From Nitrospira sp. (GTDB taxonomy: Bacteria > Nitrospirota > Nitrospiria > Nitrospirales > Nitrospiraceae), in contig JARFXP010000002.1 in NCBI GenBank assembly GCA_029194675.1, forward strand, positions 930,001-994,000: a stretch of DNA of 64,000 bases. The letters are read 5' to 3'. Every line of letters starts with the position of its first letter. Position 1 is the stretch's first letter. The notes under the pieces are model-generated. The model was not told the origin of the DNA. It saw only the letters and a list, made by a program, of their open reading frames with translations, and did no database searches. Below, piece by piece: positions 3,821 to 52,462 of the stretch. Position numbers and translations under genes: made by a program.

Positions 3821-4858
3821 ATGACGACCTATCGTGATGCAGGCGTGGATATCGATGCAGGCGATGAGCTTGTCGATCGCATCAAGCCGCTTGTTCGATC
3901 GACGTTTCGATCCGAGGTCCTGACCGACTTAGGAGGCTTTGGCGGCCTCTTCGGCTTCCAAGCCGGCAAGTACAAAGAACCAGTGCTCGTCTCTGGAACC
4001 GACGGGGTCGGGACAAAACTAAAGATTGCCTTCATGATGGATAGGCATGACACCGTCGGAGTCGATCTGGTGGCGATGTGTGTCAATGATATTGCCGTGA
4101 GCGGAGCGGAGCCGCTGTTTTTCCTGGACTATTTCGCGACCGGGAAGTTGTCTGTGTCGAAGGCGCAGAAAGTGGTCGCCGGCATCGCCGAAGGTTGCCG
4201 CCAAGCCGGGTGCGCCTTGATCGGCGGGGAAACTGCCGAAATGCCGTCATTCTATCCTGATGGGGAATATGACCTGGCTGGTTTTGTCGTCGGCGCAGTC
4301 GATCGACCGAAGATCATCGATGGTCGACACATTGTGCCTGGAGATGCAGTCATCGGCTTGGCCTCTACGGGCCTCCATAGTAACGGTTACTCGCTGGCCC
4401 GGCGAGTGCTGTTTGAACAAGCCAAACTGACCGTTGCCAGCCGTCTTTCTGAGATTGATGGGCCCATCGGCGAGGTTCTCCTGACACCCACCAGAATTTA
4501 TGCGAAGCAGATTTTGGCGCTCGTCGAGCAATTTCCGATCAAAGGCATCGCGCATATTACCGGAGGCGGCATTACGGAGAATTTGCCACGCGTGTTTCCT
4601 AAGCGTGTGCGGGCGAGGATCGCTCGATCAACCTGGTCAGTGCCTCCAATCTTCGACGTGATTAGCCGTCTTGGGCAGGTCGATCGGGAAGAGATGTACC
4701 GGGTTTTTAATATGGGCATCGGGTTGATTCTCGTGGTACCGCCCGATTCAGTGTCCGGAGTGCTGGCTCGCGCCACAGCGTTGGGCGACCGAGGCTGGCA
4801 GATCGGCGAAATCGTTTCCTCCACCGGGGAGGAGCCGGAGGTCGAGTATGTCGATTAG
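3821..4858 (+). CDS. purM: Phosphoribosylformylglycinamidine cyclo-ligase (AIR synthase)
   Basis: A 345-residue cytosolic enzyme of purine synthesis that closes the imidazole ring of AIR from FGAM using ATP. The length is typical. Family motifs are clear: the N-terminal [11 protein letters not shown], the ATP/substrate loop GTDGVGTK (about 54-61), GGETAEMP (about 139-146), and the C-terminal GGITENLPR and NMGIGL. The ATG at 3821 has no strong ribosome site. It overlaps purN by 11 bases, so the two are probably co-translated. Transcription likely starts from the promoter at 3686-3714. Confidence 0.97.
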
Positions 4859-5522
4859 CCGAACGACCCCATTGCGAGTGGCGGTACTGGCATCCGGTCG
4901 AGGCTCCAACCTGCAAGCCATCGTCGATGCGATCGAAGCGGGTCAGGTACAGGCTCAGATTGTCGCTGTCATCAGCAATAAGAAGGACGCGGTCGCACTG
5001 GAACGGGCTCGGAAGCACGGACTAACCGATATTTTCGTCGATCCCAAACCCTTTGTCGGACGTCCAGACAGTCGTGAAGCATACGACCGGTCACTACTGG
5101 AAATACTTCAGCGACACGAAGTCGAACTTGTCTTGCTCGCAGGCTACATGAAAATCGTCACGGCGGTGCTGGTCAATGCCTATGCCAACCGCATGATGAA
5201 TATTCATCCCTCGCTGCTGCCGTCATTTCCTGGATTGGACGTACAGAAGAAGGCCATTGACTGGGGCTGTAAGCTGGCCGGATGTACCGTGCACTTCGTG
5301 ACGGAAGGCGTGGACGAAGGGCCGATCATCATCCAAGCAGCCGTGCCGATCCTCGACGATGACACACCCGAAACACTTGCCGCCAAAATCCTCGTGCAAG
5401 AACACAAGATCTGTCCCCGCGCCGTACAACTCTTTGCCGAGGGGCGACTTCGTGTCGACGGTCGGCGGGTCTTCATCGATGATGCCAAGCCGGACGGAGA
5501 GGCACTCATCAGTTCTGCGTAA
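4848..5522 (+). CDS. purN: Phosphoribosylglycinamide formyltransferase
   Basis: A 224-residue protein of the formyl-transferase fold that passes a formyl group from 10-formyl-THF to GAR, step three of purine synthesis. The phosphate-binding GRGSNLQA lies near residue 18. The catalytic asparagine and histidine sit in [13 protein letters not shown], and the catalytic aspartate in VDEGPIIIQ. The start codon lies inside the end of purM (overlap 4848-4858), which indicates translational coupling. It converges with the DUF72 gene 24 bases on. Confidence 0.97.
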
Positions 5523-5545
5523 TGGATCTCGTATGACTATGACCA

Positions 5546-6451
5546 TTACTCTTCATGGCCATGGCCTAGGCAACCTGCAAGGGCTTGCACCGTCAATGGT
5601 GCATTCCCTTCCGAGCGATTGTTGACCAAGACATAGGCTCGTCGGTTTTCGCTTACCGCCTGCTGGATGAGAGTTACAGTCTCTTTTCGCATCTGAGGCA
5701 ACACCCCCACGGTCTTGTCATAAGGCTCGGCTCGTCTTTTGGCTGCTTCGTAACTCATCTTGAGCGGCGTGAGCAGACGGATGACAGTGAACGGCGCTGT
5801 GAAACGCTCTTCCATCCGTTTGTGCTGGTGCAGCAACGGTGGCATGTAGGACCAGTGATTATAGACGTGTGCTATACCATGGCTGTCTAAAACTTTCCGA
5901 TAGTCCAGTCCGAGCAAACCAGGATTGCGGATCTCGATCGCATACCGAAAGTCATTTGGTAGCTGACCGAAGAACCGATCGAGCCGTGAGCAAAACTCGC
6001 CTGTGGACATCCCGTGTTGTTGGAACTCGAAGAGGAGGGGGCCCATGTGCGGCTCAAACTTAGCCTCGCGGTATGGCGTCAGGACCAGTTCGTTGAATAG
6101 CTTCGCATCGAGAAATCGTGGATTCGGTTGTCCGGCTTTGAGGCCGTAGCGGGCTTGTCTGGAGAAGCTGGGAATGGTGATTTCCTCCCAGACTTTGAAA
6201 CACATCTGGAAGTCTTCTGGAATCTGGTTTAGGTAATGCCGAAGCTGATTTGCGGTCGGTGGGCGATAGAAGGTTGAATCATTCCCGACCGTGCGAAAGA
6301 GCGGTTCGCCGTTGTAGAGGTATTGACAATACTCTCCTAGACATTCCCTCGCAAAAGTCGTCTTGGTGTACTGTCGTCGATAAACCTGGCCTTGCCAGCC
6401 TTCGTAGGTCCACGTTGAAGTACCGAATCGAATCAAGGAAGAGAGAGGCAT
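5546..6451 (-). CDS. DUF72 family protein
   Basis: A 301-residue TIM-barrel-like protein of the DUF72 (YecE) family. Family hallmarks are the N-terminal IRFGTSTWTYEGW, the NSTFYRPP-type segment (here DSTFYRPP) and the C-terminal YVLVNNRSEGNAP. The biochemical role of DUF72 is not firmly known. I chose the ATG at 6451 because the family domain begins six residues later; an upstream ATG at 6574 would add 41 residues with no family resemblance. Neither start has a good ribosome site. It converges with purN. Confidence 0.85.
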   Translation of the reverse strand: MPLSSLIRFGTSTWTYEGWQGQVYRRQYTKTTFARECLGEYCQYLYNGEPLFRTVGNDSTFYRPPTANQLRHYLNQIPEDFQMCFKVWEEITIPSFSRQARYGLKAGQPNPRFLDAKLFNELVLTPYREAKFEPHMGPLLFEFQQHGMSTGEFCSRLDRFFGQLPNDFRYAIEIRNPGLLGLDYRKVLDSHGIAHVYNHWSYMPPLLHQHKRMEERFTAPFTVIRLLTPLKMSYEAAKRRAEPYDKTVGVLPQMRKETVTLIQQAVSENRRAYVLVNNRSEGNAPLTVQALAGCLGHGHEE

Positions 6452-6576
6452 GAGGGCGCGATTGTACTGAAGAAGTGTGGAAGAAACTAGAATTAACCTG
6501 GAGTCCTGAAACGCAAGCGGTTCCTTGGTCTGAGATCCAACTTGATCCCATGGTCTCAGCGGCTCGTGAAACAAAA

Positions 6577-6604
6577 ACGGGCAGGGTCATCCTTCCCTGC
6601 CCGT
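6577..6604 (-). terminator. Rho-independent terminator of the smbP-like gene
   Basis: A perfect 10-bp stem (ACGGGCAGGG and CCCTGCCCGT) surrounds an 8-base loop. Read on the minus strand it is followed at once by TTTTTGTTT. It lies 27 bases past the stop of the gene at 6632-6970. Confidence 0.85.
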
Positions 6605-6631
6605 CATACAGTCCCTTGGGTTTTTGATACC

Positions 6632-6970
6632 TTATTTGACTTCGGTCAGATGCGTGAGAGCAGTTTCGGCATGCTGCGTGGCAACGTCGGCGTGGCCCGC
6701 TTTCCCATGCTCAATGGCTTCGTTCAGATGCGTAATCGCTTCGTTCAAATGGGGGTTTTTGCCTCCCCTCTCGGCATAGTTCCGCGACTTTTCCGCATGT
6801 GTCACAAGCGCATCAGCATGGCCCTGTTTGCCGTGGTCCACCGCTTCCTTCGCGTGCGCGACGGCGTCCTTGACGTTACCGGCTGGGGACGGCTGAGCGT
6901 TCAACGTAGGCACACTTGCGAACGTTGCTAGCGCAATAATAACGATACCGCGGTAGAGTGTACTGGTCAT
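6632..6970 (-). CDS. SmbP-like small periplasmic metal-binding protein
   Basis: A 112-residue secreted protein. Residues 1-25 form a signal peptide (TLYRGIVIIALATF core, cleavage after LNAQ). The mature part is a chain of short alpha-helical repeats rich in His, Ala and Glu, with recurring HAKEAVDHGKQGHAD-like units. This is the pattern of SmbP, a small copper/metal-binding protein first described in the ammonia oxidiser Nitrosomonas europaea. It probably buffers copper or other divalent metals in the periplasm. The ATG at 6970 was chosen for its GGGAGGCGAAG ribosome site. It ends at a strong terminator (6577-6604). Confidence 0.85.
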   Translation of the reverse strand: MTSTLYRGIVIIALATFASVPTLNAQPSPAGNVKDAVAHAKEAVDHGKQGHADALVTHAEKSRNYAERGGKNPHLNEAITHLNEAIEHGKAGHADVATQHAETALTHLTEVK

Positions 6971-7084
6971 CTTCGCCTCCCTTTTGGTTAGACTCACTGC
7001 CTGACAGTACCGCACTTAAACTCAACGCACCTTGTCGCGGTTCACCTCTCTGAGATCACTGGCGTGAGACTGTGAGATGGTATT

Positions 7085-7160
7085 TGGTGGAGGGCAGGGG
7101 AGTTGAACCCCCGACCCCTACGTTGCGAACGTAGTGCTCTCCCAACTGAGCTAGCCCCCC
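7085..7160 (-). tRNA. tRNA-Ala (anticodon CGC)
   Basis: A 76-nt cloverleaf on the minus strand with an encoded CCA end. The acceptor stem is GGGGGGC paired with GCCCTCC, including the G3-U70 wobble pair that identifies alanine tRNA. The anticodon loop TTCGCAA sits on the stem CTACG/CGTAG. The T arm contains GTTCAAC. It decodes GCG. Confidence 0.95.
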
Positions 7161-7427
7161 ACCCGTGGGATGTTTGGGACCGTGACCAAGAGTCCCGCAG
7201 GGTTTGCTGCATAGGAGCATGCAGTCTTGTTGCTGCGGTCGAAGAACGGGGAGGAATAGAAGGTCACGCTTCCCGTGGGGCATTATACACAACCCGTTAC
7301 TGAGACTCTACCAGTACCTTGATCGCACACGAACGAGGAACCGGTCGAACGTGTGCCGATCTGGGACCTGCTGTCGGAAGCCGATGCAGATCGCGGGTCG
7401 GTCGGACCAGGCCGCTTGCTCTCTCCT

Positions 7428-7751
7428 TTAGCGGTAGATAACGGTCACGCGCTTGAGGAAGTCTTCCAGCTGTACGATGTGCTGTTCGATCGTCAAGCGG
7501 TCCTCCAGTTTTGCCGCGCGTTCCATTGCCGCTCCGATTTCGGTAATTCGATCGAAACCGAAGCCGCCTCCGTCGCCTTTCATGCGATGGCCCAGAGTCT
7601 GAACGGTCCTGAAGTCCTGCTTCAGCAGCGCATCTCGAATTGTCCGGACATCCCTCCTCCGGTTATCTAAGAAGATCGGCACAATACTTTCAAGATCGCG
7701 ACTGATCTCCATCGTAAGTCGGTCTGTTGGTTCCGGATGTGAGGCGTGCAT
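7428..7751 (-). CDS. HPt (histidine phosphotransfer) protein
   Basis: A 107-residue all-helical phosphotransfer protein. The phospho-accepting histidine lies in LGHRMKGDGGGFGF, the HPt signature. It starts two bases after the stop of the hybrid kinase and is therefore in the same operon. By family knowledge it should relay phosphate from the kinase's receiver domains to a further response regulator, most likely one of the two encoded upstream. No membrane segment or extra domain is present. Confidence 0.92.
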   Translation of the reverse strand: MHASHPEPTDRLTMEISRDLESIVPIFLDNRRRDVRTIRDALLKQDFRTVQTLGHRMKGDGGGFGFDRITEIGAAMERAAKLEDRLTIEQHIVQLEDFLKRVTVIYR

Positions 7752-7753
7752 CG

Positions 7754-10039
7754 CTAGACGACGTGTTCCTTGTACGCCCGAAGCACTTCCAATAAAGTGG
7801 ATTTTTTGACGGGCTTCGTGAGGTGTGTGTTGCAGCCAGCTTCAAAGATGCGGGCTCCTTCTTCCTTGAGGGCCAATGCAGTGAGGGCGATAATCGGCGT
7901 GGGTGGGAGATCATGATCCCGTTCCCATGAGCGGATTGCTTTTGTCGCGGCATAGCCGTCCATCACGGGCATTTGCACGTCCATCAAGATGACGTCGTAA
8001 TGCACGGACTTGAATTTGTCCAGCGCGACGGCGCCGTGTTCTGCCACGTCGAGGAAATAGTCTGGCTGTTTCAGGTATGCCCGAACCAGCAGTTGGTTGT
8101 CGGGAGAATCTTCAACCAACAATACGCGCAAAGCCCGCGTAGCAGCGGTCGACGGTGGTGCTGTGGCGTCCACACCTGTCGGCGGCGTTCCTTTAGTCCG
8201 GCCAAGGGCGATCCCGATTGATTGCACGAGGTCGGCCTGCCGGATGGGCTTAATCAGATAACCGCCAAGGCCGAGGTCATAAGTCCGTGCGATATCATCC
8301 GCCCAATGATCGGAGGTCAACATGATGACGGTCGGGCAACTCCCGTTAAGCGCGGATTTCAGCTGTTCCACAACATGGAAGCCGCTCATCTCAGGCATGC
8401 GGCAGTCGAGGAGCAATAGCTCGTACGCATGTCCTCGTTCAGATGCATGGCGGAGTTCGTCCAACGCGGTCATCCCGTCGCCTGCTTCCGTAACCTGAGC
8501 CCCCCAGGTACTCAGCAGTTCTCGGAGTATGAGGCGGTTGGTGGGGTGGTCGTCCACGACCAGGACTCTGACACCAGCAAGGTTGATCTCGGTTGCGGAT
8601 TTCTGCTGGGGCGGTTCTGTTTGAGTCTGAAGCAGGATGGAACAGTGAAAGGTGCTCCCTGTTCCGACCGTACTCTCGGCCCAGATCCGCCCGTTCATAC
8701 CTTCGACGAGGCGTTTGGTGATCGCAAGACCGAGTCCTGTCCCTCCGTACTGTCTGGTCGTTGAGGCATGTGCCTGCGTAAAGGTATCAAAAATCGAGAC
8801 GAGTTGTTCGGAGGGAATGCCGATTCCCGTGTCACTGATGGAAAACCGAATGGCACCGGCAATATTCCGCTCAGGATCGTTCGTAACACGAACGACAATG
8901 GAACCCTTGTCGGTAAATTTGAGGGCATTGCCGATCAGATTGATCAATATTTGCACCAGTCGTGTCGGATCACCGACCAAATGACAGGGTACATTCCGCT
9001 CCACATGGCAGGCAAGCTCAAGACCTTTCTCGTTGGATCGCATCGCCAATATATCGATGGTTTTGTCGATGACTTCGTTCAGGTCGAATCCGATGGACTC
9101 CAGCTCCAAGCGGCCGGCTTCGACTTTGGAGAGGTCCAGAATGTCGTTGATAAGATTCAAGAGTGTGCCACCCGCACGTCTGAAGATACGTAGGTACTTC
9201 CTTTGGTCAGGTGTGAGCGGCGTATCCCAGAGGAGATCGGCCATGCCGATGATGGCATTCATAGGGGTGCGGATCTCGTGACTCATGCTGGCGAGGAACT
9301 CACTCTTGGCACGGTTGGCCACTTCGGCGGCTTCTTTGGCGACACGGAGGGCTTGTTCCACTTCACGCCGTTCGGCCGCTTCTAGAGCAAGGGTCGCCGT
9401 GGTTGCGAGTAGGCTGACGAGGCGTTGTTCAAATCGACTCCACCGTCGGGGCGCGCCGACGGACTCGGCACAGAGTGCGCCCACGAGCCGTCCATGTTGC
9501 CTGACTGGCGCGCTCAACATGGCTTCTATACGGAAACGGGATAGGTACGACGGTGCCAGTTCCATGAATCGTGAATTTCTGAAAGCATGGTGAACTGCGA
9601 TGGTGTGATACTGACGTGCCGGAGATCGAAGGTAAGCACGCCAGCGCGAGGACTGGAACACGAATGTAGGGTTGGAATGTTGTCGGCGGGATGTGCACAC
9701 GTCGATCAGTTCGATGGCAGATCGCTCCTTTGTAAACAACCAGATGCTGGCGCGTTTGACTTGCAACAAGCTACAGCACGCCTCTGAAATAGCGCGAAAC
9801 ACACGGGTCATGTTGCCGCCGTTCAAAGCCTGATGCTGCGCCAGTTTGTGCAGGCTGTCTTGATATTGCTTGAGCAGCGTGGTTGCCCTTTGCTCGAATG
9901 AGAGGCGCGTTCGTTCGGAGAGTTTCCGCTTGTGGGGAGCGGAGACGCGCCTGGTTGCAGAGCGGGAAGTCCGAGAAAGGTTCCTGGTTACCGCTGCTCG
10001 GTTGTGTGGTCTTCCACGTGGATGGCGTGACCGTGACAT
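7754..10039 (-). CDS. GAF-domain hybrid histidine kinase with two receiver domains
   Basis: A 761-residue soluble kinase. A basic N-terminus (about 1-45) precedes a GAF sensor domain (about 70-225) and a short coiled coil. The HisKA dimer domain has its phospho-histidine in [10 protein letters not shown] near residue 250. The HATPase domain has DTGIGIP and GTGLGLAI. Two receiver domains follow (about 500-615 and 645-755), both with the aspartate in a D-x-x-MP context ([11 protein letters not shown] and [11 protein letters not shown]). No membrane segment is seen, so it senses something in the cytoplasm. The HPt gene follows two bases later, completing a His-Asp-His-Asp relay. Confidence 0.93.
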
Positions 10040-10075
10040 GGGGCGTCAATAGTCGGGGAACAGCTTTGACCGGTT

Positions 10076-11080
10076 TTAGTCGTCGTGTGAGTCTCGGACC
10101 AATGAGAGAATGCTGGCCGACTTAGTCCGATTGCGTCCATCTTGTTTCGCTTGATAGAGAGCCTGATCTGCGGCTTTGATGAGATCGGTAGGAGAAGCAT
10201 TTCTATTGGGAATAGTGCAGGCATACCCGACGCTGATTGTCACGAGTTCTTCATCGGCATGCTTCATGCCTAGCGATTCGACTCGACGACGCAGGCTTTC
10301 CGCGACTTGTGCCGCGCCGTCGAGGCCGGTGCCGGGCAAGACCGTGACAAACTCATCTCCGCCATAGCGGGCAACCAAATCGCCGGGACGATTCACAGAG
10401 CTGGAGATTGCCGCAGCGACCTGTTTGAGACATTCATCGCCGGCCGTGTGCCCCTTGGCGTCGTTATAGGTCTTAAATCGGTCAATATCGAACATAATCA
10501 GAGACAACGGCGTTGACTCGCGTGCCGCTCTCCGCCATTCCTGGTCCAGAAAGTCATCGAACTGACGTCGATTGGTGATACCCGTCAATCCGTCCAAGCA
10601 GGAGAGACGGAGCAACATCTGATTGGCTTCTTGGAGCTGGCGCATGACCTCGAGGAGTTCTTGTTCACGCGCACGGCGGCGGTCGATTTCGTGGACAAGC
10701 CGGAGCACCGACCGCACTCTGGTCAGAAGCTCGACCTTGTTGACCGGTTTGGCGACGTAATCCATGGCTCCGGCGGCAAACGCAAGCTGAAGATCGACCG
10801 GATCCGTCTTGACGGTGACCATAATAATCGGAGTATCTCGGAACCGGTCAGCGGCTTTTATCTGGCGACAAGCTTCGATGCCGTTCATCTGCGGCATCAG
10901 GATATCCATGAGGATCAAATCGACTCGCGCAGCGCCTTGCTTACCTCCGTCCAGGCCGAGCTGTCCGAACGCGGCGGCGGCCGAATCCGCCGTCAAAATG
11001 TTTTCATAGCCGGCAGTCGACAGAATGGCCTGCAAGAGTAACCGATCATCTGCAGAGTCGTCGACGATGAGAATGCTCAT
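10076..11080 (-). CDS. Response regulator with diguanylate cyclase (GGDEF) output
   Basis: A 334-residue PleD-like regulator. The receiver has D7/D8 and phospho-acceptor D59. A coiled-coil linker leads to a GGDEF domain with intact active site YGGDEF near 245. The inhibitory RxxD site (RPGD) sits exactly five residues before GGDEF, so product inhibition by cyclic di-GMP is expected. It makes cyclic di-GMP from two GTP, switched by phosphorylation. It lies in the minus-strand signalling operon, 36 bases upstream of the hybrid kinase. Confidence 0.94.
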
Positions 11081-11124
11081 ACATTCACCAGCCTTTGACA
11101 GGGAAGCTTGCGGGATCGTAACAG

Positions 11125-11763
11125 CTAGTCTTGATAAACACCAGGATAAAGCTTTTTGAGGCAGGGTTGGCAGAGTCCGTGGCTAAACTCAGCTTCGGAA
11201 TGCTCGCCGATATACTCTTCGAGTTGTTGCCAGAACCCGCCGTCATTGCGGATTTTCTTGCAGGAGGCGCAGATTGGGATCAGCCCGCGAAGCACTTTGA
11301 CTTCGCGGAGGGCTCGTTGGAGTTCCTCATTGCTGCGGCGAAGCTCCTCCTCCCGTTCCTTCCGGCAATCCATTTCGTTCTTCAGTGTGAGCGCCGAGGA
11401 CACGCGGGCGAGTAACTCCACCTCATTCACGGGTTTGTTGATGTAATCCATCGCACCGGCCGAGAAGGCTTCTCTCAGATTGTTGAGATCATTCTGGGCC
11501 GTCACCATGATGATCGGAATGTCTCGAAGGTGAGCCTGCTGCTTGATTTGTCGGCAGGCCGATACGCCATCGATGGCAGGCATGAGTACATCCATCAGAA
11601 TCAAATCGATATCAATTGATACCTTCGTGCCGCCAAGGTTCAAAGCCGTAAAAGCTGCCTCGGCCGAATCGGCCACGAGAACATCATGATGACCGGCCTT
11701 AGTCAGAATAGACCGAAGTAATAGACGCTGGTCGGGAGAGTCATCAACTATGAGGATCGCCAT
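11125..11763 (-). CDS. Response regulator with C-terminal cysteine-rich tail
   Basis: A 212-residue protein: a receiver domain (D7/D8, phospho-acceptor D58, lysine in INKP), a coiled-coil linker rich in Glu/Arg, and a tail with CASCKKIR and CQPCLKK plus a conserved WQQLEEYI segment. This tail is known from the ends of many sensor kinases and regulators and may bind a metal. It has no DNA-binding domain. It is the first gene of the signalling operon, 44 bases before the GGDEF regulator, and a clear paralog of 1520-2137. Confidence 0.88.
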
Positions 11764-11846
11764 ACCACTACTTAACGGCCAAGAGCGAACGAAACTGAAA
11801 CTGCCAGGTGATAGGATTCAGTATAGCTGATGATTCAAGAGATGAA

Positions 11847-12293
11847 TCAGGTGAGCTTGCTTTTCACCAGGTCGCTGACTTGCTTGCCGTCGATGGACTG
11901 TCCGGCGAGGCGGGCCATAACTGCCTTCATGACTGTTCCCATATCTTTGAGTGAGCGGGATCCGGTCTCCGCGACAGCCGACGCGACAATGGTCTCGATC
12001 TCTTGAGGGGAAAGCGGTTTGGGGAGGTACGACTCGATAATTTCGATTTCCTTCCGTTCTTTGGCAGCCAGTTCCGTCCGTTGAGCTTTTTCAAATTGTT
12101 CGACGGATTCCCGACGCTGTTTTACGAGGGTCGTCATCACGAGGCTCATTTCCGCATCATCAAGGTCCCGCTTCAGTTCGACTTCTTTGTTCAGGATGGC
12201 GGCTTTGATCATACGGATGACATCCATGCGCAGTTGATCGCGTGATTTCATTGCGAGCTTGAGGTCTTCGGTCAGACGGTCGGACAACGACAT
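11847..12293 (-). CDS. GatB/YqeY domain protein
   Basis: A 148-residue, mostly helical protein of the YqeY family, related to the tail domain of the GatB/GatE tRNA amidotransferase subunits. Typical features are the start MSLSDRLTEDLKLAMKSRD, the basic LNKEVELKRDL region and the C-terminal GRVM-like KAVMARLAGQSIDGK. Its cellular role is not settled. The ATG at 12293 gives the usual family length and follows a GTGAGG site; a GTG at 12305 is possible. Confidence 0.9.
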   Translation of the reverse strand: MSLSDRLTEDLKLAMKSRDQLRMDVIRMIKAAILNKEVELKRDLDDAEMSLVMTTLVKQRRESVEQFEKAQRTELAAKERKEIEIIESYLPKPLSPQEIETIVASAVAETGSRSLKDMGTVMKAVMARLAGQSIDGKQVSDLVKSKLT

Positions 12294-12443
12294 GGGATGC
12301 CTCACGGGTTAGGGACTGAACTGAAGTGGAGCATACGCGCTTGGTTTTAGCGAGTCAACGAGATGAGTTGGAAAGTGTTCAGACCAGAAGTGATATGATG
12401 TGGCTCGAATCGTATAGCGATCATGACGAAAGGGAGGAGTAGT

Positions 12444-12665
12444 ATGCCAAAGAAGGTGACATGCCGGACAGGGCAGAGCCATGGGTTGATCGTGACTGGA
12501 ATGGGTCTGTTGCTACTAGGTACTGGAGGCTGCGCCGGCGAAGCGGCAAAGCCTTCGCCGACAGTGACGCAGGACCAGGTTCGAAGCAATGCCGACAAAG
12601 CGTTCGAAAAGCTCAAACAAGAGGAGAAGAATCATGCTGTCGACTCCCGAGCCGTTCCTTACTGA
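12444..12665 (+). CDS. Small lipoprotein of unknown function
   Basis: A 73-residue protein with an N-terminal hydrophobic segment ending in a lipobox (LLLGTGGC), so it should be lipid-anchored at the cell envelope. The remaining roughly 45 residues are polar and predicted helical. The ATG at 12444 follows GGGAGGAG; an in-frame ATG at 12423 lies before that site. Its end overlaps the end of the convergent MFS gene by seven bases. I do not recognise the family. Confidence 0.7.
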   Translation: MPKKVTCRTGQSHGLIVTGMGLLLLGTGGCAGEAAKPSPTVTQDQVRSNADKAFEKLKQEEKNHAVDSRAVPY

Positions 12666-14068
12666 ATAGTGTTGATCGCCCGACGTGAGAGTTGTCGCAA
12701 GGGTTTCAACAGCGGCAGTTCCCATAACAATCGGTGGTGGGCGCGTTGTTCCACTTCGCGAGGCTCGTGAAAGGTCCTGAGGAGTGTCGCCGAGACGATC
12801 AAGCGAAGCAGACCTGACAGAAAGAAGATAAACGGGAGATTGGAGGGAGGATCCAGAGTCAACGCCCCAATTTGCAGGTTGGCTGGGACGGTGCCGATCA
12901 GCCAGCTTCCGATGACTGTTCCCATGCTCCACCCGATGGCGTTGACGATGCTTGAAACCGCGACCGCCTTGGCGCGATCCGTCGGCTGTACCGCATCAAA
13001 GACATAGTTGTTCAGTCCAAGTCCGAGTCCCGCCCACACCACGCCTCCGAAAAAATTCACTGTGATCAGGAATACCCACGTCGTCCCGCACAGATACAGC
13101 ATCGGCAAGAACGCGACGAGTAGCCCGGTGAAAGAGAGCAACGCCTTATTCCCAAAGCGATCGCCGAACTGTCCCCAGGCCGGCAAAGTCAGGAATTGCC
13201 CGATGATGCCGGCGGCCAGCCAGGTTCCATATTGCCAATGAGCGAGATGGAGATCCTGGAGCAGGTAGATGACAAAGAACGGACCGGCAACCAGCACGGC
13301 AGAATGCATGAGCCCAGAAAACAGTAGGAAGCGGCGAAAGTTTTCAGACATGTCGGTACGGAGAAAGACCAAAAAGCCTGTTGGGTTGCTGCTCGACTCA
13401 TGCGGTGGTAAGTCGCTTACCTTCCTCAGTAAGAGAGCCGACGCGCTACGGCAGAGTCCGGCTATGAGGAACATCACGGCAAAGCCGACCCAAAGGAGTT
13501 GCTGTTGCTCGAAAAAGCTCAATAGAGCCCCAGCCAGGCAGAGAGCAACAAAACTGGTCATTGCAATGGTCCGCGCTCGCCTGGCGAAGTACATGCCTCG
13601 TTCGTTGGGCTCGAGCAGGTCAGTGATGAGACTATTCCATACAGGAGAGGTGAAATGCGTGAAGGTGAAGTACACGGCGACCGCTGCGATGAGCAGCCAC
13701 GGTCCTTGATGAGGCCAGAGCAACGGTAGCGCAAGAATGGGGATCCAGGCGACTGATTGCCCGATGATACCCCAAAAAACTTGAGAGGCTCGGCTGGAGA
13801 ACCAGTGGCAAACTTTGACGGAAACCAACTGAGCCCATGTGCCCAAGAGTTGGGGAATGGCGGAGAGGATGCTCAAGTGGAATGGTGTCGCGTGGAGGAG
13901 CAGGGCAAAGGCCGAGAGATACTGCTCACCGGCGCCTTGGGCGACGGCTTGGAACAGCCCGTCACGAACGCCAAATCGCCGACCGGATTCGTGTGGGTGT
14001 ATGGAAGTAGGATGGTGGTTGCCAGGAACCTGCTCTGACGAATGTAATAATACTGGTTGGACCGTCAT
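12659..14068 (-). CDS. Major facilitator superfamily transporter
   Basis: A 469-residue integral membrane protein with about 11-12 hydrophobic segments, typical of MFS length. The loop between TM2 and TM3 is replaced by a weaker motif, while the LLEPNERGMYFARR segment after TM5 resembles the loop of the large MFS_1 group often called UMF1/BtlA-like. The central charged loop lies near residues 215-230. The substrate cannot be told from sequence. It stands alone on the minus strand. Confidence 0.85.
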   Translation of the reverse strand: MTVQPVLLHSSEQVPGNHHPTSIHPHESGRRFGVRDGLFQAVAQGAGEQYLSAFALLLHATPFHLSILSAIPQLLGTWAQLVSVKVCHWFSSRASQVFWGIIGQSVAWIPILALPLLWPHQGPWLLIAAVAVYFTFTHFTSPVWNSLITDLLEPNERGMYFARRARTIAMTSFVALCLAGALLSFFEQQQLLWVGFAVMFLIAGLCRSASALLLRKVSDLPPHESSSNPTGFLVFLRTDMSENFRRFLLFSGLMHSAVLVAGPFFVIYLLQDLHLAHWQYGTWLAAGIIGQFLTLPAWGQFGDRFGNKALLSFTGLLVAFLPMLYLCGTTWVFLITVNFFGGVVWAGLGLGLNNYVFDAVQPTDRAKAVAVSSIVNAIGWSMGTVIGSWLIGTVPANLQIGALTLDPPSNLPFIFFLSGLLRLIVSATLLRTFHEPREVEQRAHHRLLWELPLLKPLRQLSRRAINTIQ

Positions 14069-14352
14069 AATCCGAAAGCCAAGATCACTCTACCATAGAA
14101 CAGAAGGCGCACAAGGATTCATCGGAACATGGCGGGTAGCAATTGACCCCTGCAATGCCCCTCAGTACGATACCTCCCTGACTGATGATGTTTCGGCAAG
14201 AATATTTACCAAAGGCTCGGTGGCTGATTGAGGCAATAGCCGTATCATGCAGTGAATCAGGTCGGCACGATGCGCGTTACGAGCAAGGATGTTGTGCCTG
14301 TCTCGTCTCAGGATGAGAAATAGGTGAGATAAATTCATGAAGAAAGGGACTT

Positions 14353-14637
14353 ATGGGAGAGCGCGTGAGGATTACCGACTCTGAAAAGTTGAGCTTACTG
14401 TATGAACGGTTTCGGGATGTCTGTTTGGTTGAAAAGGAGGTTTGGAAGGAAATCTTCATGCCTCGCGATATAGCACAGGGTCCGGTTCGGACGAACATTC
14501 AGGATCGATATGAGGTTGAGATTGACGATCCTGAGATCGAGGCTGCTCTTGATGCAAACATTACTCTCGGAGCGGCCGCCCTGTGGGCGGCCGTCCAGGA
14601 GTATCGTCAACACATTGAGTTTTACCGAGTGCGTTGA
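14353..14637 (+). CDS. Hypothetical 94-residue acidic protein
   Basis: A short soluble, acidic, helical protein (start MGERVRITDSEKLS). It has no signal peptide, membrane segment or cysteine motif. A modest site (AAAGGGAC) precedes the ATG. Codon use resembles neighbouring genes and there is no competing frame, so it is probably real. I do not recognise the family. It ends six bases before the end of the convergent htpX gene. Confidence 0.55.
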   Translation: MGERVRITDSEKLSLLYERFRDVCLVEKEVWKEIFMPRDIAQGPVRTNIQDRYEVEIDDPEIEAALDANITLGAAALWAAVQEYRQHIEFYRVR

Positions 14638-14643
14638 TGTTCA

Positions 14644-15564
14644 TTAGGCCGATAGTTGCTGTAAGGCTGCGATCCGCTCCTCAATCGGCGGATGAGTGGC
14701 GAACAGGTGCATGAATCCAGATGTCTTACCCGAGATCTTAAAAGTCGCCAGGGGATCCTGCGTGCCGTATTCAGGTTGTGCTCTCGTGACCCACCGATTG
14801 ATCCCTTCCAAGGCCGAGATCATTGCGCCCTTGCCATACACCCGCGCGGCGAATGCGTCCGCACCAAATTCCCGCCGACGGGAATGCCAGCTGATCACCA
14901 GCATGGCCAGAAATGACAAAACAATTTGGAGGAAGATATAAACCACAAAGGCGAGGAAAGGATTTCCCGCACTCCCTTCCTCTCGGTCTCCCTGAGGTTG
15001 CCCAACCAGTTGTGCCAGGAAGTTGCTGATATAGTAGACGAACGTGTTCATCAATCCCGCAAGCACGGTTGTCGTAAACATGTCTCCGTTATAGACGTGT
15101 CCCATCTCGTGGGCGAGAACCGCCTTGACCTCATCCTCTTTGAGATTCTGCAACAGACCGGTAGAAACAGCCACCATCGAATTGTTCTTACTCGGGCCCG
15201 TGGCAAATGCATTGGGGTCCGGCGACTCATACACCCAGACCTCCGGCATGGTGATGTGAAGCCGTTGAGCAATCTCCTGGACGGAGCCGTAAATCACATG
15301 CTCGGCATGTGACCGTGGCTGAGTGATTTGCTGACAGCTCAGCATAGCTCGCGCCATCTGCTTGGAGAATGCCAAGCTGATGAACGCGCCACCGAACCCG
15401 ATCACCAAGGACCAGACCAATAGCTGCTGATTGAAGACTCCCCGCACATCGATTCCGAACGCCGGCAGAACCACGTTTATCAACAGATTGGCCGTGAACG
15501 ACAGCGTGATATAGATCAAAAAATTTGCAATCAGGAACAGGCCAATACCTTTAAGCCACTTCAT
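14644..15564 (-). CDS. htpX: HtpX membrane zinc metalloprotease
   Basis: A 306-residue M48-family protease of the inner membrane that cleaves misfolded membrane proteins. Two N-terminal membrane segments (about 7-32 and 48-66) are followed by the zinc site HEMGH (H152, H156) with the distal glutamate in RRREFGADAFAA, then two more membrane segments between them (about 165-185 and 205-225). The family motif SPDPNAFATG is present. The ATG at 15564 was chosen for its AAGGAGGATATC ribosome site. The upstream extension to 15636 has no support. Confidence 0.95.
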   Translation of the reverse strand: MKWLKGIGLFLIANFLIYITLSFTANLLINVVLPAFGIDVRGVFNQQLLVWSLVIGFGGAFISLAFSKQMARAMLSCQQITQPRSHAEHVIYGSVQEIAQRLHITMPEVWVYESPDPNAFATGPSKNNSMVAVSTGLLQNLKEDEVKAVLAHEMGHVYNGDMFTTTVLAGLMNTFVYYISNFLAQLVGQPQGDREEGSAGNPFLAFVVYIFLQIVLSFLAMLVISWHSRRREFGADAFAARVYGKGAMISALEGINRWVTRAQPEYGTQDPLATFKISGKTSGFMHLFATHPPIEERIAALQQLSA

Positions 15565-45242: not shown

Positions 45243-45929
45243 ATGAATACACCCGCGTTACTGGAAGGGCTTCGGTTCGTCGATACGTTTTTCCCCTCCG
45301 GTGGCTATGCGTTTTCCTCTGGGCTAGAAGCGGCCATCCAAGGCGGCGCCGTCAAGACCTCCGATCAGTTCGCCAGATACATTGAAGATTTGCTGCGAGG
45401 CGGCATGAGCCGCCGGGAAGCTCTTGCCACAAAACAGGCAAATCGAGCGGCATCGACGGGATCTCTGAATGCAGCGGCCCACATCGATCGGGAGTTGGAT
45501 GCGACAAAGCTCGGTCGTGAGTCACGGTTGGCGAGTCGTCAGATGGGACGGCAAGTGATCAGGGTTGCGGCGGATCAGATCCTGGCGAAACCGATCCTTA
45601 GCGAGTATCGTGATGAAGTAGAAGCTGATCGAGCCCCTGGTCATCTCGCGGTGACGTTCGGGCTCACGATGGGCACGTGTGACTGGAGCCCAGAGGAAAC
45701 TGCGGCTGCCTTCTTGTACCAAACTGCCGTCGGCTTCATATCTGCTGCCATGCGGCTCTGTCCCATCGGCCAACATGAGGGGCAGCGCATATTGGGCGAA
45801 TGGCTTCCGTTGATTGAACGGATCAGTCGAGAGGTTGACTTAGATACAGCGATGAACTCGTGGTCGCCTATCCAAGATATTTATGCGATGCGTCATGGCT
45901 CTCTGGAGTGGAGGCTCTTTCGGTCTTAA
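45243..45929 (+). CDS. ureF: Urease accessory protein UreF
   Basis: A 228-residue helical chaperone that joins UreD and UreG in loading nickel into urease. Family motifs: [17 protein letters not shown] near the start, [11 protein letters not shown] in the middle and the C-terminal [23 protein letters not shown]. It begins 83 bases after ureC; no ureE gene lies between them, where it is often found. Confidence 0.95.
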
Positions 45930-46020
45930 TCTGCGAAGCCGACGCGCATCGTTTCTACTAGAAAGGCATAGACCCGCAGTTGATGGCCTTTGGCCTCATC
46001 TACCTGGTCGTGGGATTATC

Positions 46021-46692
46021 ATGCATGATCTAAATCGTGAACACAGTCATAATTGGACTCCAACTCAAGCGCGAAAACAAGGTATTCCGGTCATTGGTAT
46101 TGGAGGCCCCGTTGGATCGGGGAAGACGGCGCTCGTCGAAGCGCTGTGTCAGAGATTGCGTGACCGGTATAGCCTCGCCGCGGTGACCAACGATATTTTC
46201 ACCAAAATCGACGCGGAAATCCTGACCAAACGCGCGGCGTTGCCGGTCGACCGGATTCTTGGTGTTGAGACCGGTGGATGTCCCCACACAGCCATCCGCG
46301 AAGATGCCTCGCATAACCAAGAGGCCATCGATGATCTGCTTCGGCGTCATCCTGATGTTGAGTTGATCTTCTTGGAGAGTGGGGGAGACAACCTTGCGGC
46401 GACCTTCAGCCCTGAACTGGTGGATCATGTCATCTATGTGATCGATGTGTCGGGAGGTGACAAGATCCCTCGTAAAGGTGGACCAGGGATCACTCGATCG
46501 GACTTCCTGGTCATCAACAAAATGGATTTAGCCCCACATGTGCGTGCCGATTTGTCCGTCATGGATCGGGATACCCGCCGGATGCGCGGTGATCTTCCCT
46601 TCGGGTTCACGAATATCCTTTCCGGCGAAGGGTTGGATACCGTCGTCGCCTGGGTGGAACAACGCATACCTCAACGAGCCAGGCGTTCATGA
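46021..46692 (+). CDS. ureG: Urease accessory GTPase UreG
   Basis: A 223-residue SIMIBI-class GTPase that powers nickel delivery. P-loop [13 protein letters not shown], metal motif [16 protein letters not shown] (the CPH nickel site), [12 protein letters not shown] and the guanine motif INKMDLAPH. The ATG at 46021 gives a short, slightly longer than usual N-terminus; there is no clear ribosome site. The reading frame open upstream overlaps ureF and is not coding. It overlaps ureD by four bases. Confidence 0.96.
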
Positions 46693-47654
46693 CCGTGCCA
46701 ATTCGGGAGGGGAAACGAAAGAGTGCGTCTCGGAGGACCGCCGCTTCTCCAGAAAGAAAATCTTCTGAGAGAAGAACGCCTTCGCGAAAACGAAATACCC
46801 CTGGACGGTTTGCGACGGAATTGGTCGGACGGGTCGGCGAGCTCAAGCTTGCATACGCGAAGCTCGAGCAGCGAACCATTATCTCGTACTCCTATTTCAC
46901 GACGCCTTGGAAACTGCTCCCTCCCATTTACCTTGATGATACCGGAGCTGCCTACACGCTATTGGTCAATCAGTCCGGCGGCCTGGTTGGAGGAGACCGT
47001 CTTTCCATCGATATGAGTTTGGACAAGAAGGCGCATGTGCTGATCTCCGCGTCTTCTGCCAACCGCGTCTATCGGACCGAGGACAAGGTATCTGACCAGC
47101 ACATCACCATCACTATCGGGCCGGACGCAGTTTTGGAATGGTTTCCCGAACATACGATTCCCTTTGCCGGTTCACGATTTCGACAGATTCTTCACGCCAC
47201 GCTGGCGCCGGGTGCCACTCTTCTCTTGTGGGACGCCGTCGCTTCTGGACGCATCGCCAGAGAGGAACGATGGGCCTTTACCGATCTGGAGAACGAAATC
47301 CGAATCACGACGGCATGCGGCCGCTCTCTGCTTGAGCGATACGTCATTAACCCGGCCACGGACTTAGGTCGTGTTGGACTGGCGGAAGAATGGAACTACG
47401 TTGCCTCGTTCTATGTGGTGAACGATGCTATGGCATCTGAGGTCTGGAGCCGATTGGAGTCGAAGATCGTACCTATCTTGGATGAGCGGCCAGGTCATGT
47501 CTTGGGAGGAGTCTCAACACCTAGCGTTCCAGGGCTCGCAATCAAATTGCTGGCTCGAAAGGCTCCTGACCTTACCTACATGCTCGATGCCTTATGGGCG
47601 GTCATCCGCGAAGAGGTTTTGAATCTCCCGCCTGTGTCGTTGCGAAAATACTAG
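46689..47654 (+). CDS. ureD: Urease accessory protein UreD (UreH)
   Basis: A 321-residue chaperone that binds apo-urease and recruits UreF-UreG. Core motifs are clear: [45 protein letters not shown] and [15 protein letters not shown]. Residues 1-40 are a lysine/arginine-rich extension not normal for the family. The ATG overlaps the ureG stop. It is the last gene of the urea locus; an IS fragment begins 97 bases later. Confidence 0.95.
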
Positions 47655-47734: not shown

Positions 47735-47758
47735 ACCTATAAACCTATGAACCTATAA
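47735..47758. repeat. Three tandem 8-bp units at an IS end
   Basis: ACCTATAA, ACCTATGA and ACCTATAA stand in a row. The last unit overlaps the first bases (CCTATAAAC) of the IS1380 fragment, so the array copies the IS end outside the element. Confidence 0.6.
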
Positions 47759-48032
47759 ACGGCAGTTGAAGCAACGGCCTGCTCCGGGATAGGCTTGCTG
47801 GCAGCGGAGTGGCGGTACATTGTTTCGTACGAAGGGAGTCACCCAATGGGTGAGGCACCACGCAAGGCCATGGCCGGACAGCAGGGGGCGATTGCGCTCG
47901 AGACGTTTGGGGGGCGAATCCACGTCGAGTGGGACCCTGCTGCAGCTGTGACTCCACTTGGCCAGTTGCCGTTCTTCATCGAGTTTCTCAAAGTGAGTGG
48001 CCTGTTTGAGACCTGGGTCGCGGATTGCCCGC
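47752..48032 (+). mobile_element. IS1380-family 5' fragment
   Basis: This fragment matches the start of the element at 26601 closely, through the transposase start (MGEAPRKAMAGQQGA) to the residues VADCPL, where the two copies part at about 48033. Only about 60 codons of the transposase remain. It is joined directly to an IS1182 fragment. Confidence 0.82.
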
Positions 48033-48421
48033 TGACAGAGCTTCAGCACCTGGACGAACAAATCGGCCAGCGCCGTCAGATGCTGTTTCCGAAAGTCGCT
48101 GAGCGTCCGGAAATCCGGCCGCTGGTTCGCCGCCAGCACCCGAAAGGCCACATCCTCCAGTTCCCGCGCAATCTACCGCGACGCCGGAACTCCAACAGCG
48201 TAGGCATAGAGCAGCACCTTCACCAGCAACTGCGGATGATAGGGGGCCGTGCCGCGCGTCACCCCGCCATAACTCGCCAGGATGGGATCGCGGTTCAAGG
48301 TCTCCACCAGATCCGTCACGAAGTCCGCCAGGTGGTCCTCCGGCAACCAGTCGCGCGGCGACGGCGGCAACAGCCACAGGTCGTCGGGTTCGTAGGGGCG
48401 AAAGGTCCGAGTCGTCATCAT
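48033..48421 (-). pseudogene. IS1182-family transposase, N-terminal fragment with internal stop
   Basis: Start MTTRTFRPYEPDDLWLLPPS is typical of IS1182 transposases, followed by HPQLLVKVLLYAYAVGVPASR. A TAG then stands in the same frame at 48173-48175, where a lysine codon is normally found, and the reading continues IARELEDVAFRVLAANQRPD up to the junction. Both the stop and the truncation make it non-functional. Confidence 0.8.
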
Positions 48422-48503
48422 GCAGCCGCCTCATTCCTCACTACGTAGATACACACATTCGTGGCCGCACACAAGTGCGTGAGCTAATGTCGGACAGGCT
48501 CCT
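48033..48503 (-). mobile_element. IS1182-family 5' fragment
   Basis: Minus-strand remnant with a likely terminal sequence near GAGCCTGTCCGACA (48490-48503, complement). It reaches from the element end to the junction with the IS1380 piece at about 48033, so two unrelated IS fragments face each other with no spacer. Confidence 0.72.
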
Positions 48504-50170: not shown

Positions 50171-52462
50171 ATGAGTCACCCGCTAGATTTTGTCACCGTT
50201 GAAGGACTCCTTGCCTATGGTCGTGCCCTTGCTCAACGAGCATCGGAGCGAGGCCTCATCGTTCCTCCTCCGATAGAAGCCTCCGGTGAGGACGTTGGTC
50301 GTGTCCACACCAAGATGGAACAACTCCGCTCGTTCGTCGAGCGTTCCAAGTCCGGGTTTGCAACCGCTGGAGACTATCGGTCGGCTCGGGAAGGTTTGAT
50401 CGATGATCCGCTGGTGTTCTTTGCCGCCTGGAACGTGCTTCTTGCGGAAGGCTCGCTCCAGCAGCTACTCCGATCTACAATCGGGGCGGTAGCCAAACCG
50501 ACCTATCGGCGCCCTGTTGCCATCGTGCCCCGTGCGCAGCTCACACCCACGCTGGCAGAAGGCCGCATTGTCCTTGAACTGGGCGACGACCGATTTTGGT
50601 TATTGCCACGGGATCTGGGCGATCGAACATTGTTCTTCACGATGCGCCACGGTGTCTCGCAGGTGGACAGCAAGACTCATCGCGTCGGATGCCGTCTGCC
50701 GAACCAATTGGACCGGGAACGGGGGGTGGCCAAAGCCGACGCAGTGGGGACAGCGCTCGCCCGCATGATCGGCGTTGTGGGACAGCAGCTCGACTTTCTG
50801 CACCTTACCAACTACCTCGATCCTCGTACGTTCCTTCATTGCATCAGCCGGAGCCCGAATACCAGACAACTGTACGAACGGGTGTCTACAGCATTGCTGC
50901 AAGGAACCTCTCCGTCCGAACCGATCGCCGAGCCGGCTCTCGAATCGTCGGATTTCGGTTGGGTCACGGGATTGGAGAAGTCCCTGGAGGTCGAAGAAGC
51001 GGCGCGCGTGTTCGGCGTCGAGATATCCACGGCCAAGCGACTGATGAAAGATCCGCTGTATTGTTATCCGGGTGGTAATTCTTTCTTCGACCTCTATGTC
51101 GACGTCATCGATGGTCTCCACCGATTGGGCTATGCGCAAAAGGGCAAAGTGGCCTGTCTCTATACCCACAGTTCCACCCTGCGTGCGTTGATGATCTATT
51201 TGGATCCGCGGCCGTTCCATGAAGCGTTCAGCGAGTTCAGCGACTACAAGGAAAGCCAAGACAATGTCGTGCTGCTCACGCTCGAACAGGGCCGCTTATC
51301 CGGCTACTCGACGGCGGTTGGGCTGTCCGAGCGAGAGAGGGTTGTGCGCAACACGTGGGTGGCTGTAGAGAATGCGAGGAAAGATCGCGTGACGCTCAAG
51401 CCCCGAACACTCAAGCGGATCGTGGCCCTCGTGTCCGGGGGTGATTTCGCCGGGGCCGGTGCGGCATTAAAGGAATTGCACGTGACCGGCCAGCGCTTGG
51501 GATTGGAGGTCTATTTCGTCCGGCACGGCTATCTCGGTCTGGCCAACAATTGGATTGAACGAGTCACCGAAGCGCACACCCGCGGCATGAGCAGCCATCC
51601 GAGCAGCCCCATCGGCAGCAGCCGTTTTGAGGAATTCAAGCAAGAGACGGTGTTGCAGGTGGCCATGCGGCACCTGGAACCGTACCTGCGTGACGGCGTC
51701 TTGGTGGTGTTGGGCGGCGATGGTAGCATGCGGGGCGCTCGAGCCATTTACGAAGGATTCGGAGCGCAGGTGGTCGGCATTCCGGGCAGTATCGACAATA
51801 ATATTGAAGGTACGATTTCTCTCGGATTTCAGTCCGCCGTGGCGTTGGCGGATCAGTCGATTGAATCCCTCAAAGCCACCAGTGCCGCGATGGGCACGGT
51901 GTTCTTTGTGGAGGTCATGGGTGCTGGGTCAGGCCATCTGGCGCTGGCCTGTGCGTATCAGGCAAGAGCCGAAGGATTGTTGGTCAATGAACATCCCGAC
52001 CCGAATGCCTATATCGATGACGTGATCCTCGGGACGCTCAAGCGGACATTGGGAGTGCCGAACAAGAGCCACTTGTTCGTCGTCGCCGAACGTACGCCGC
52101 ATCGGCATCACAAGGATGGTGGCGTCCATGGTCTTGTCGACTATGTGGGCGGTGTGATCGCCCGATGGCCGGAGCGGCATGCTTCACCAGGTCACTATCC
52201 GCTCACACTCGCCACCAAAGCCACCATCCTTGGCCACACCCTCAGAGGCGCCCGGCCCATACCGGAGGACAAGGTGATGGCCCAACATCTTGCTCATGAG
52301 GCGGTGCACCGACTGATCGAGTCACCCGAGGACATCGTCGGATGTCTCTTGGCCTACCGTGAACGGGGATCAATCGGGCCGATTCCACTTCATGCCGTGA
52401 CACCCAAGCAGTTCGACTGGGACGTCTTCAGTCGGATGCATGGCAACACTCACATCTCATAA
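50171..52462 (+). CDS. Histidine-phosphatase-like domain fused to PfkA-like phosphofructokinase
   Basis: A 763-residue fusion. Residues about 1-145 are a helical region of unknown role. Residues about 150-395 resemble the histidine phosphatase superfamily (TMRHGVSQ, R159-H160; second histidine H333 in YTHSSTLR). Residues about 415-750 resemble PfkA: SGGDFAGAGAAL, GGDGS (515-519, the ATP-type glycine), PGSIDNN (538-544) and ILGHTLRGA (H689, R692). Compared with E. coli PfkA, TIDND is SIDNN and MGR is MGA, so activity or substrate may differ. It stands alone, on the plus strand. Confidence 0.85.
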   Translation: MSHPLDFVTVEGLLAYGRALAQRASERGLIVPPPIEASGEDVGRVHTKMEQLRSFVERSKSGFATAGDYRSAREGLIDDPLVFFAAWNVLLAEGSLQQLLRSTIGAVAKPTYRRPVAIVPRAQLTPTLAEGRIVLELGDDRFWLLPRDLGDRTLFFTMRHGVSQVDSKTHRVGCRLPNQLDRERGVAKADAVGTALARMIGVVGQQLDFLHLTNYLDPRTFLHCISRSPNTRQLYERVSTALLQGTSPSEPIAEPALESSDFGWVTGLEKSLEVEEAARVFGVEISTAKRLMKDPLYCYPGGNSFFDLYVDVIDGLHRLGYAQKGKVACLYTHSSTLRALMIYLDPRPFHEAFSEFSDYKESQDNVVLLTLEQGRLSGYSTAVGLSERERVVRNTWVAVENARKDRVTLKPRTLKRIVALVSGGDFAGAGAALKELHVTGQRLGLEVYFVRHGYLGLANNWIERVTEAHTRGMSSHPSSPIGSSRFEEFKQETVLQVAMRHLEPYLRDGVLVVLGGDGSMRGARAIYEGFGAQVVGIPGSIDNNIEGTISLGFQSAVALADQSIESLKATSAAMGTVFFVEVMGAGSGHLALACAYQARAEGLLVNEHPDPNAYIDDVILGTLKRTLGVPNKSHLFVVAERTPHRHHKDGGVHGLVDYVGGVIARWPERHASPGHYPLTLATKATILGHTLRGARPIPEDKVMAQHLAHEAVHRLIESPEDIVGCLLAYRERGSIGPIPLHAVTPKQFDWDVFSRMHGNTHIS

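Follow-up and report, generated by a model that had tools for sequence, protein, structure and literature searches.

The window, a stretch of 64,000 nucleotides of Nitrospira DNA from contig C2 (genome size 5.2 Mb), encodes a 763-residue protein in which a phosphatase-type fold (about residues 108-405) and a PfkA fold (about residues 413-763) are joined in one chain. Both domain families are known, and their fusion is a new arrangement of them. Judged from its sequences, it is an old, class-wide protein and not a local oddity. Its probable role is that of a hitherto undescribed enzyme controlling glycolysis. No published description of the architecture was found in the open-licence papers searched, and the accessible text of the 2025 review of the PFK superfamily (PMC12203962) does not mention it.

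The kinase half was recognized clearly by Pfam (PF00365, residues 416-713, E 5.5e-55, 187.1 bits against a curated cut-off of 30.9). PF00300 stayed below threshold in the full window protein (E 0.013, 15.6 bits against a cut-off of 21.7), and was matched by 20 of 21 orthologues when the phosphatase half was searched in isolation (best E 3.9e-8). Since a sequence profile of the phosphatase half gave no true match in the PDB, a separate fold model was needed, and residues 1-411 were modeled with AlphaFold2 in a run of their own with 36 class members (pLDDT 85.6, pTM 0.86). Every PDB match listed for this model was a histidine-phosphatase-type fold, the best being TIGAR (8.4e-8), PFKFB3 (8.9e-8) and mycobacterial glucosyl-3-phosphoglycerate phosphatase, GpgP (1.6e-7); PhoE (TMt 0.76) and phosphoserine phosphatase were also among the nearest solved folds. 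When hhalign compared the phosphatase half directly with individual phosphatases, the alignments were weak (E 0.005 and 0.28). A preliminary description of this open reading frame had proposed such a fusion, with a domain order opposite to that of PFK-2/FBPase-2, and the profile matches and predicted folds bear out both points: the kinase half is C-terminal, and the check that would have undone the proposal, absence of a phosphatase match for residues 150-395 or of the phosphatase core, did not overturn it.

Table 1. Features of the fusion gene. Positions are those of the window; residues in parentheses after an equals sign follow E. coli PfkA.
Feature	Position	Strand	Basis
Fusion gene	50171..52462	+	ATG start, ORF, 763 aa plus stop
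N-terminal helical extension, residues 1-107	50171..50491	+	predicted structure, alignment, dN/dS
Histidine-phosphatase (branch 1) domain, residues 108-405	50492..51385	+	PF00300, predicted fold
RHG, R159 H160 G161 (phospho-accepting His)	50645..50653	+	67/67 orthologues
S259-x-D261, both invariant; Ser at the place of the general-acid Glu (LxExxxG)	50945..50953	+	alignment, 67 orthologues; weak GpmA profile alignment
THSSTLR, second catalytic His333 and R338	51164..51184	+	67/67; aligns with AHGNSLRAL of the genome's own GpmA-like protein
PfkA-type kinase domain, residues 413-763	51407..52459	+	PF00365; E. coli PfkA 1pfk TMt 0.88
R485 (= R72), kept	51623..51625	+	alignment
GGDGS, residues 515-519, D517/G518 (= D103/G104), ATP-type, kept	51713..51727	+	alignment
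PGSIDNN, residues 538-544, D542 (= catalytic base D127) kept, N544 (= D129) changed in 66/67	51782..51802	+	alignment
T576, S in most orthologues (= R162), changed	51896..51898	+	alignment
MGA, residues 583-585, A585 (= R171), 67/67	51917..51925	+	alignment
A639-E640 (E640 = E222), kept	52085..52090	+	alignment
K683...GHTLR, K683 (= R243), H689 (= H249), R692 (= R252)	52217..52246	+	alignment

Spread and selection of the fusion

We searched for the fusion in genomes that all belong to the phylum Nitrospirota. With the whole protein as query, full-length copies in 246 genomes were restricted to the class of the window, where they occur in many families and go down to 62% identity; outside the class only the kinase half found matches, to separate PFKs. 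Over all searches, full-length fusions of the class share 61-96% identity. Every relative recovered by DNA scan bears the title Nitrospira or Nitrospiraceae. The phosphatase half, sought with a profile, was present in 101 of 396 genomes, all within the class (Nitrospira and relatives), and its matches sit in open frames of 764-887 residues, bar a few contig-end or broken copies. This profile search found no stand-alone gene for the phosphatase half in the 396 genomes, and searches of plasmids and of viral contigs found none. In the tree the fusions form one clade with a long stem (support 100/100), which lies on the side of the ATP-type PfkA proteins and is separate from the PPi-type and mixed-group PFKs.

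Strong purifying selection acts on the whole gene (dN/dS about 0.07-0.10), and its strength is about equal between the halves (0.03-0.08). Across 67 sequences, 81 of 298 columns of the phosphatase half and 116 of 351 columns of the kinase half are invariant. The extension of residues 1-107 is more weakly constrained (dN/dS 0.15-0.29, 5 of 107 columns invariant). A chance open reading frame or frameshift artefact is ruled out by about 100 intact full-length copies together with the low dN/dS, and the almost exceptionless conservation of motifs in the 67 orthologues, apart from S/T at residue 540 and N/D at residue 543, likewise excludes chance or sequencing error. Conservation of both halves argues against decay, and the loss of usual residues from both argues against simple textbook activities. 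Broken or truncated copies were seen at G319:C1:134683-135927, G293:C31:128427-129263 and G268:C1:3678100-3678969, and reflect either gene decay or assembly errors.

Active sites of the two halves

The kinase half of the full model aligned with E. coli PfkA over 348 columns at 28% identity. In E. coli numbering it keeps G11, R72, G101-G104, G124, T/S125, D127, M169, E222, H249 and R252, and the ATP and catalytic positions G11, R72, D103, G104 and D127 are intact in all 67 orthologues. The preliminary description had read GGDGS with its ATP-type glycine, SIDNN in place of TIDND, and MGA in place of MGR, and each reading was exact: D517 and G518 are found in 67/67 orthologues, D129 is replaced by Asn in 66/67, and R171 by Ala in 67/67. 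A further change, at R162, was missing from that description: this position carries Ser or Thr in the 67 orthologues, save for Asn in one. R162 contacts the 6-phosphate of fructose 6-phosphate (F6P) from the neighboring subunit, and it is one of four residues holding that phosphate according to PMC12203962. A paper on cyanobacterial PFK (PMC11609450) contained none of the active-site terms sought.

We tabulated these sites in 20 fusions and 23 other PFKs. R162 was replaced by Ser or Thr and R171 by Ala in 20/20 fusions, and D129 by Asn in 19/20 (the exception being L115), whereas D129 was present in every non-fusion PFK. Among the latter, His occupied position 162 in one, which belongs to the window genome itself (L029), and position 171 in three. 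MGH stands in place of MGR in the PfkA of L083 and L088, which are class members' own PfkA proteins, and of L128; its presence in otherwise ordinary PFKs indicates that R171 can be replaced by His. The Lys at position 243 (K683) is unremarkable, since it is shared with Bacillus methanolicus PfkA. Thus, compared with bacterial PfkA (PF00365; 1PFK), the fusion has in common the fold, GGDG, D127, R72, E222, H249 and R252, but differs by the changes at R162, R171 and D129, by altered Arg/Lys residues of the effector site, by an extra N-terminal part of 410 residues and by its score against the equivalog model PFKA_ATP (NCBIfam TIGR02482), which at 172.8 bits lies below the cut-off of 371.35. Because R162 and R171 are replaced and this cut-off is missed, the kinase half, a member of the PF00365 superfamily, is as far as sequence can tell not PfkA proper. 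A partial likeness exists to the C-terminal effector half of eukaryotic PFK-1, where D129 likewise corresponds to Asn and R171 to a small residue (VSNN and MGG, with Gly at R171, in the aligned rabbit protein). However, the effector half of animal PFK-1 lacks GGDG and D127 in the alignment, whereas the fusion keeps GGDG and the catalytic Asp and has no tandem PFK duplication.

In the phosphatase half, the RHG motif at residues 159-161 and the second histidine, His333 in THSSTLRAL, had been identified correctly beforehand, and each is present in 67/67 orthologues. The general-acid Glu of phosphoglycerate mutase-like enzymes aligns with Ser259 (67/67) in an alignment that is itself weak (E 0.005, probability 6.8%); its register, L-x-E/S-x-x-Y/F-G, is consistent, and the invariant D261 follows two residues on. 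D261, H223, E273 or another invariant residue could stand in for the missing acid. The candidates for the second catalytic Arg, positions 227 and 232, are not conserved, with Arg in 39/67 and 45/67 orthologues, respectively. Hence, the fusion shares with the branch 1 histidine phosphatases (TIGAR, GpgP, PhoE, GpmA, GPM2/Rv3214) the fold, the RHG motif and a second His with a downstream Arg, but differs from them in its apparent Ser for the general-acid Glu, its unconserved second Arg and the kinase fused to its C-terminus. Apparently lacking the usual acid, and lacking a conserved second Arg, this half should not be assumed to be active as a phosphatase.

The eukaryotic PFK-2/FBPase-2 enzyme (PFKFB) likewise combines a sugar-phosphate kinase and a histidine-phosphatase domain in one chain, and the preliminary description had drawn this parallel. 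It holds for the architecture and for the phosphatase fold, but not for the kinase halves. The PFKFB kinase has a P-loop fold unrelated to the PfkA fold, while that of the fusion belongs to PF00365 and is C-terminal, and the acid of FBPase-2 appears to be absent from the fusion. With a kinase half of another fold and a reversed order, the fusion is not a PFKFB, and PFK-2/FBPase-2 is in its kinase half an analogue, not a homologue.

Pyruvate kinase and the favored reading

The fusion gene of the window is solitary: its neighbors are a short proline-rich ORF and, on the other side, small unknown genes, and upstream lie ureD, which encodes a urease accessory protein, and a ureG-like gene. In the closest relatives, L001 and L002, other genes occupy the place of the latter two (the ureG-like gene being of the cobW family; window 45883-47654), and so the urease block seems to have been inserted in the window. 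Between ureD and a short methyltransferase (138 aa), overlapping long ORFs run on both strands (47753-48448); they are possibly remnants of mobile elements or genes, and the tested + strand ORF had no Pfam match.

Elsewhere, a pyruvate kinase gene directly adjoins the fusion gene in 24 of 41 genomes scored, divergently in 22 and downstream on the same strand in 2, and in one further genome (L072) it does so in a third, convergent arrangement. Only one order shows this adjacency, and the window's own subclade lacks it. Maintenance of the neighborhood through rearrangement suggests that the fusion and pyruvate kinase are functionally linked, in that one order only. A single operon partner shared by every lineage is rejected, as the deeper families have no constant neighbor. 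Furthermore, of the 51 genomes that carry the fusion 49 encode pyruvate kinase, against 22 of the 36 that lack the fusion (Fisher p 4e-5, not corrected for kinship).

We tentatively favor, at somewhat less than even likelihood, a reading in which the fusion would control glycolysis and be specific to this class. In this view an ATP-dependent kinase of sugar phosphates, its acceptor site re-specified, would be gated by a phosphatase-like domain with a sugar phosphate as its ligand. The C-terminal half would be a working kinase of the PfkA fold; retention of all ATP and catalytic positions and the number of invariant kinase columns are unlike a decaying pseudokinase. Its acceptor pocket may have been re-specified, as R162 and R171 have been lost but the other residues, namely the catalytic base, the ATP site, E222, H249 and R252, are still in place. 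The N-terminal half would bind a related sugar phosphate or bisphosphate and, by sensing this ligand or by slowly releasing phosphate, might gate the kinase; the apparent loss of the usual acid and the loss of the second arginine make a sensor or slow releaser more likely than a fast phosphatase. The whole protein would act in the same metabolic branch as pyruvate kinase. Genomes in which the fusion is the only PF00365 protein also fit this reading; the restriction of the pyruvate kinase adjacency to one order, the altered effector-site Arg/Lys and the possible stand-ins for the acid count against it. The earlier interpretation is partly supported, and its suggestion of a different sugar phosphate or a regulator fits. 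It had left out the class-wide occurrence without a stand-alone phosphatase half, the loss of R162, the Ser259 and unconserved second Arg of the phosphatase half, and the pyruvate kinase neighbor.

In soils and wastewater, nitrite oxidation and comammox are carried out by Nitrospira, whose switching among carbon storage, glycolysis and gluconeogenesis has largely been deduced from annotation. A natural point of control would be a conserved protein of this kind, with kinase and phosphatase-like parts fused and pyruvate kinase as its neighbor; it is probably annotated simply as 6-phosphofructokinase. PFK enzymology moreover gains a natural set of R162, R171 and D129 replacements.

Metabolic setting and alternative readings

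The strongest alternative, though in our estimate an unlikely one, is a true bifunctional enzyme whose kinase half makes a sugar bisphosphate for the phosphatase half to remove, the balance between the two activities setting glycolysis or gluconeogenesis; it would be a convergent bacterial counterpart of PFK-2/FBPase-2. RHG and His333 are invariant, the nearest folds include the fructose-2,6-bisphosphatases TIGAR and PFKFB3, both halves are equally constrained, and in bacteria GPM2/Rv3214, a phosphatase of the same kind, can cleave fructose 1,6-bisphosphate (PMC4535450). However, the weakly aligned but invariant Ser at the place of the general acid and the unconserved second Arg speak against it, as does the fact that 85 of 88 genomes already possess a class I FBPase and many a PPi-type or ATP PFK; a role of the phosphatase half as the only FBPase of the class is likewise rejected as a necessity. 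A more specific proposal, that the Nitrospiria evolved their own single-chain kinase/phosphatase making and removing a regulatory sugar bisphosphate that controls PPi-type PFKs and/or pyruvate kinase, we regard as improbable; if true, it would constitute a bacterial fructose-2,6-bisphosphate-like signaling system with a kinase half unrelated to that of PFKFB.

It is slightly less improbable, yet still doubtful, that the fusion is an ordinary glycolytic F6P kinase carrying an inert phosphatase-like domain, with other parts of the pocket making up for the changed residues. The retention of D127, R72, E222, H249, R252 and a Lys at 243 and the pyruvate kinase neighbor fit such a kinase, and the fusion is the sole PF00365 protein in 9 genomes, complete ones included; 12 of 88 genomes, however, have no PFK at all, so that sole-PFK status is no proof of PFK function. 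Every fusion has moreover lost R171 and the phosphate-holding R162, the PFKA_ATP score is far under its cut-off, and an inert domain should not match the kinase in constraint. Least probable of all is a PFK half that has no catalytic activity, senses ligands in the manner of the animal PFK-1 effector half, and regulates either a partner enzyme or a phosphatase half that works: the Asn and Gly of the rabbit protein and the changed effector-site residues agree with it, but GGDG, D127, R72 and G11 are all kept and the usual acid seems to be missing from the phosphatase half itself.

The window genome has two further PFKs, both PPi-type (GGDD, PKTIDND), and also carries genes for class I FBPase, transaldolase, pyruvate kinase and a DeoC/class I aldolase-family protein, so the fusion fills no obvious pathway gap. 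The idea of a sedoheptulose-7-phosphate kinase replacing transaldolase is weakened for this genome by its transaldolase. The transaldolase domain lies inside a 954-residue open frame (G000:C2:809787-810836), perhaps a transaldolase fusion protein. On another contig (L136, G000:C1:924000-940000), positions 3986-15399 of the - strand hold a one-strand run of acetate kinase, phosphoketolase, glucose-6-phosphate isomerase, a small histidine phosphatase, glycogen phosphorylase, PPK2 polyphosphate kinase and a PPi-type PFK. Gene names in this run were read from the sequences, with profile searches for the PFK, the phosphatase and the glycogen phosphorylase, and on that basis it looks like a glycogen-to-acetate bypass.
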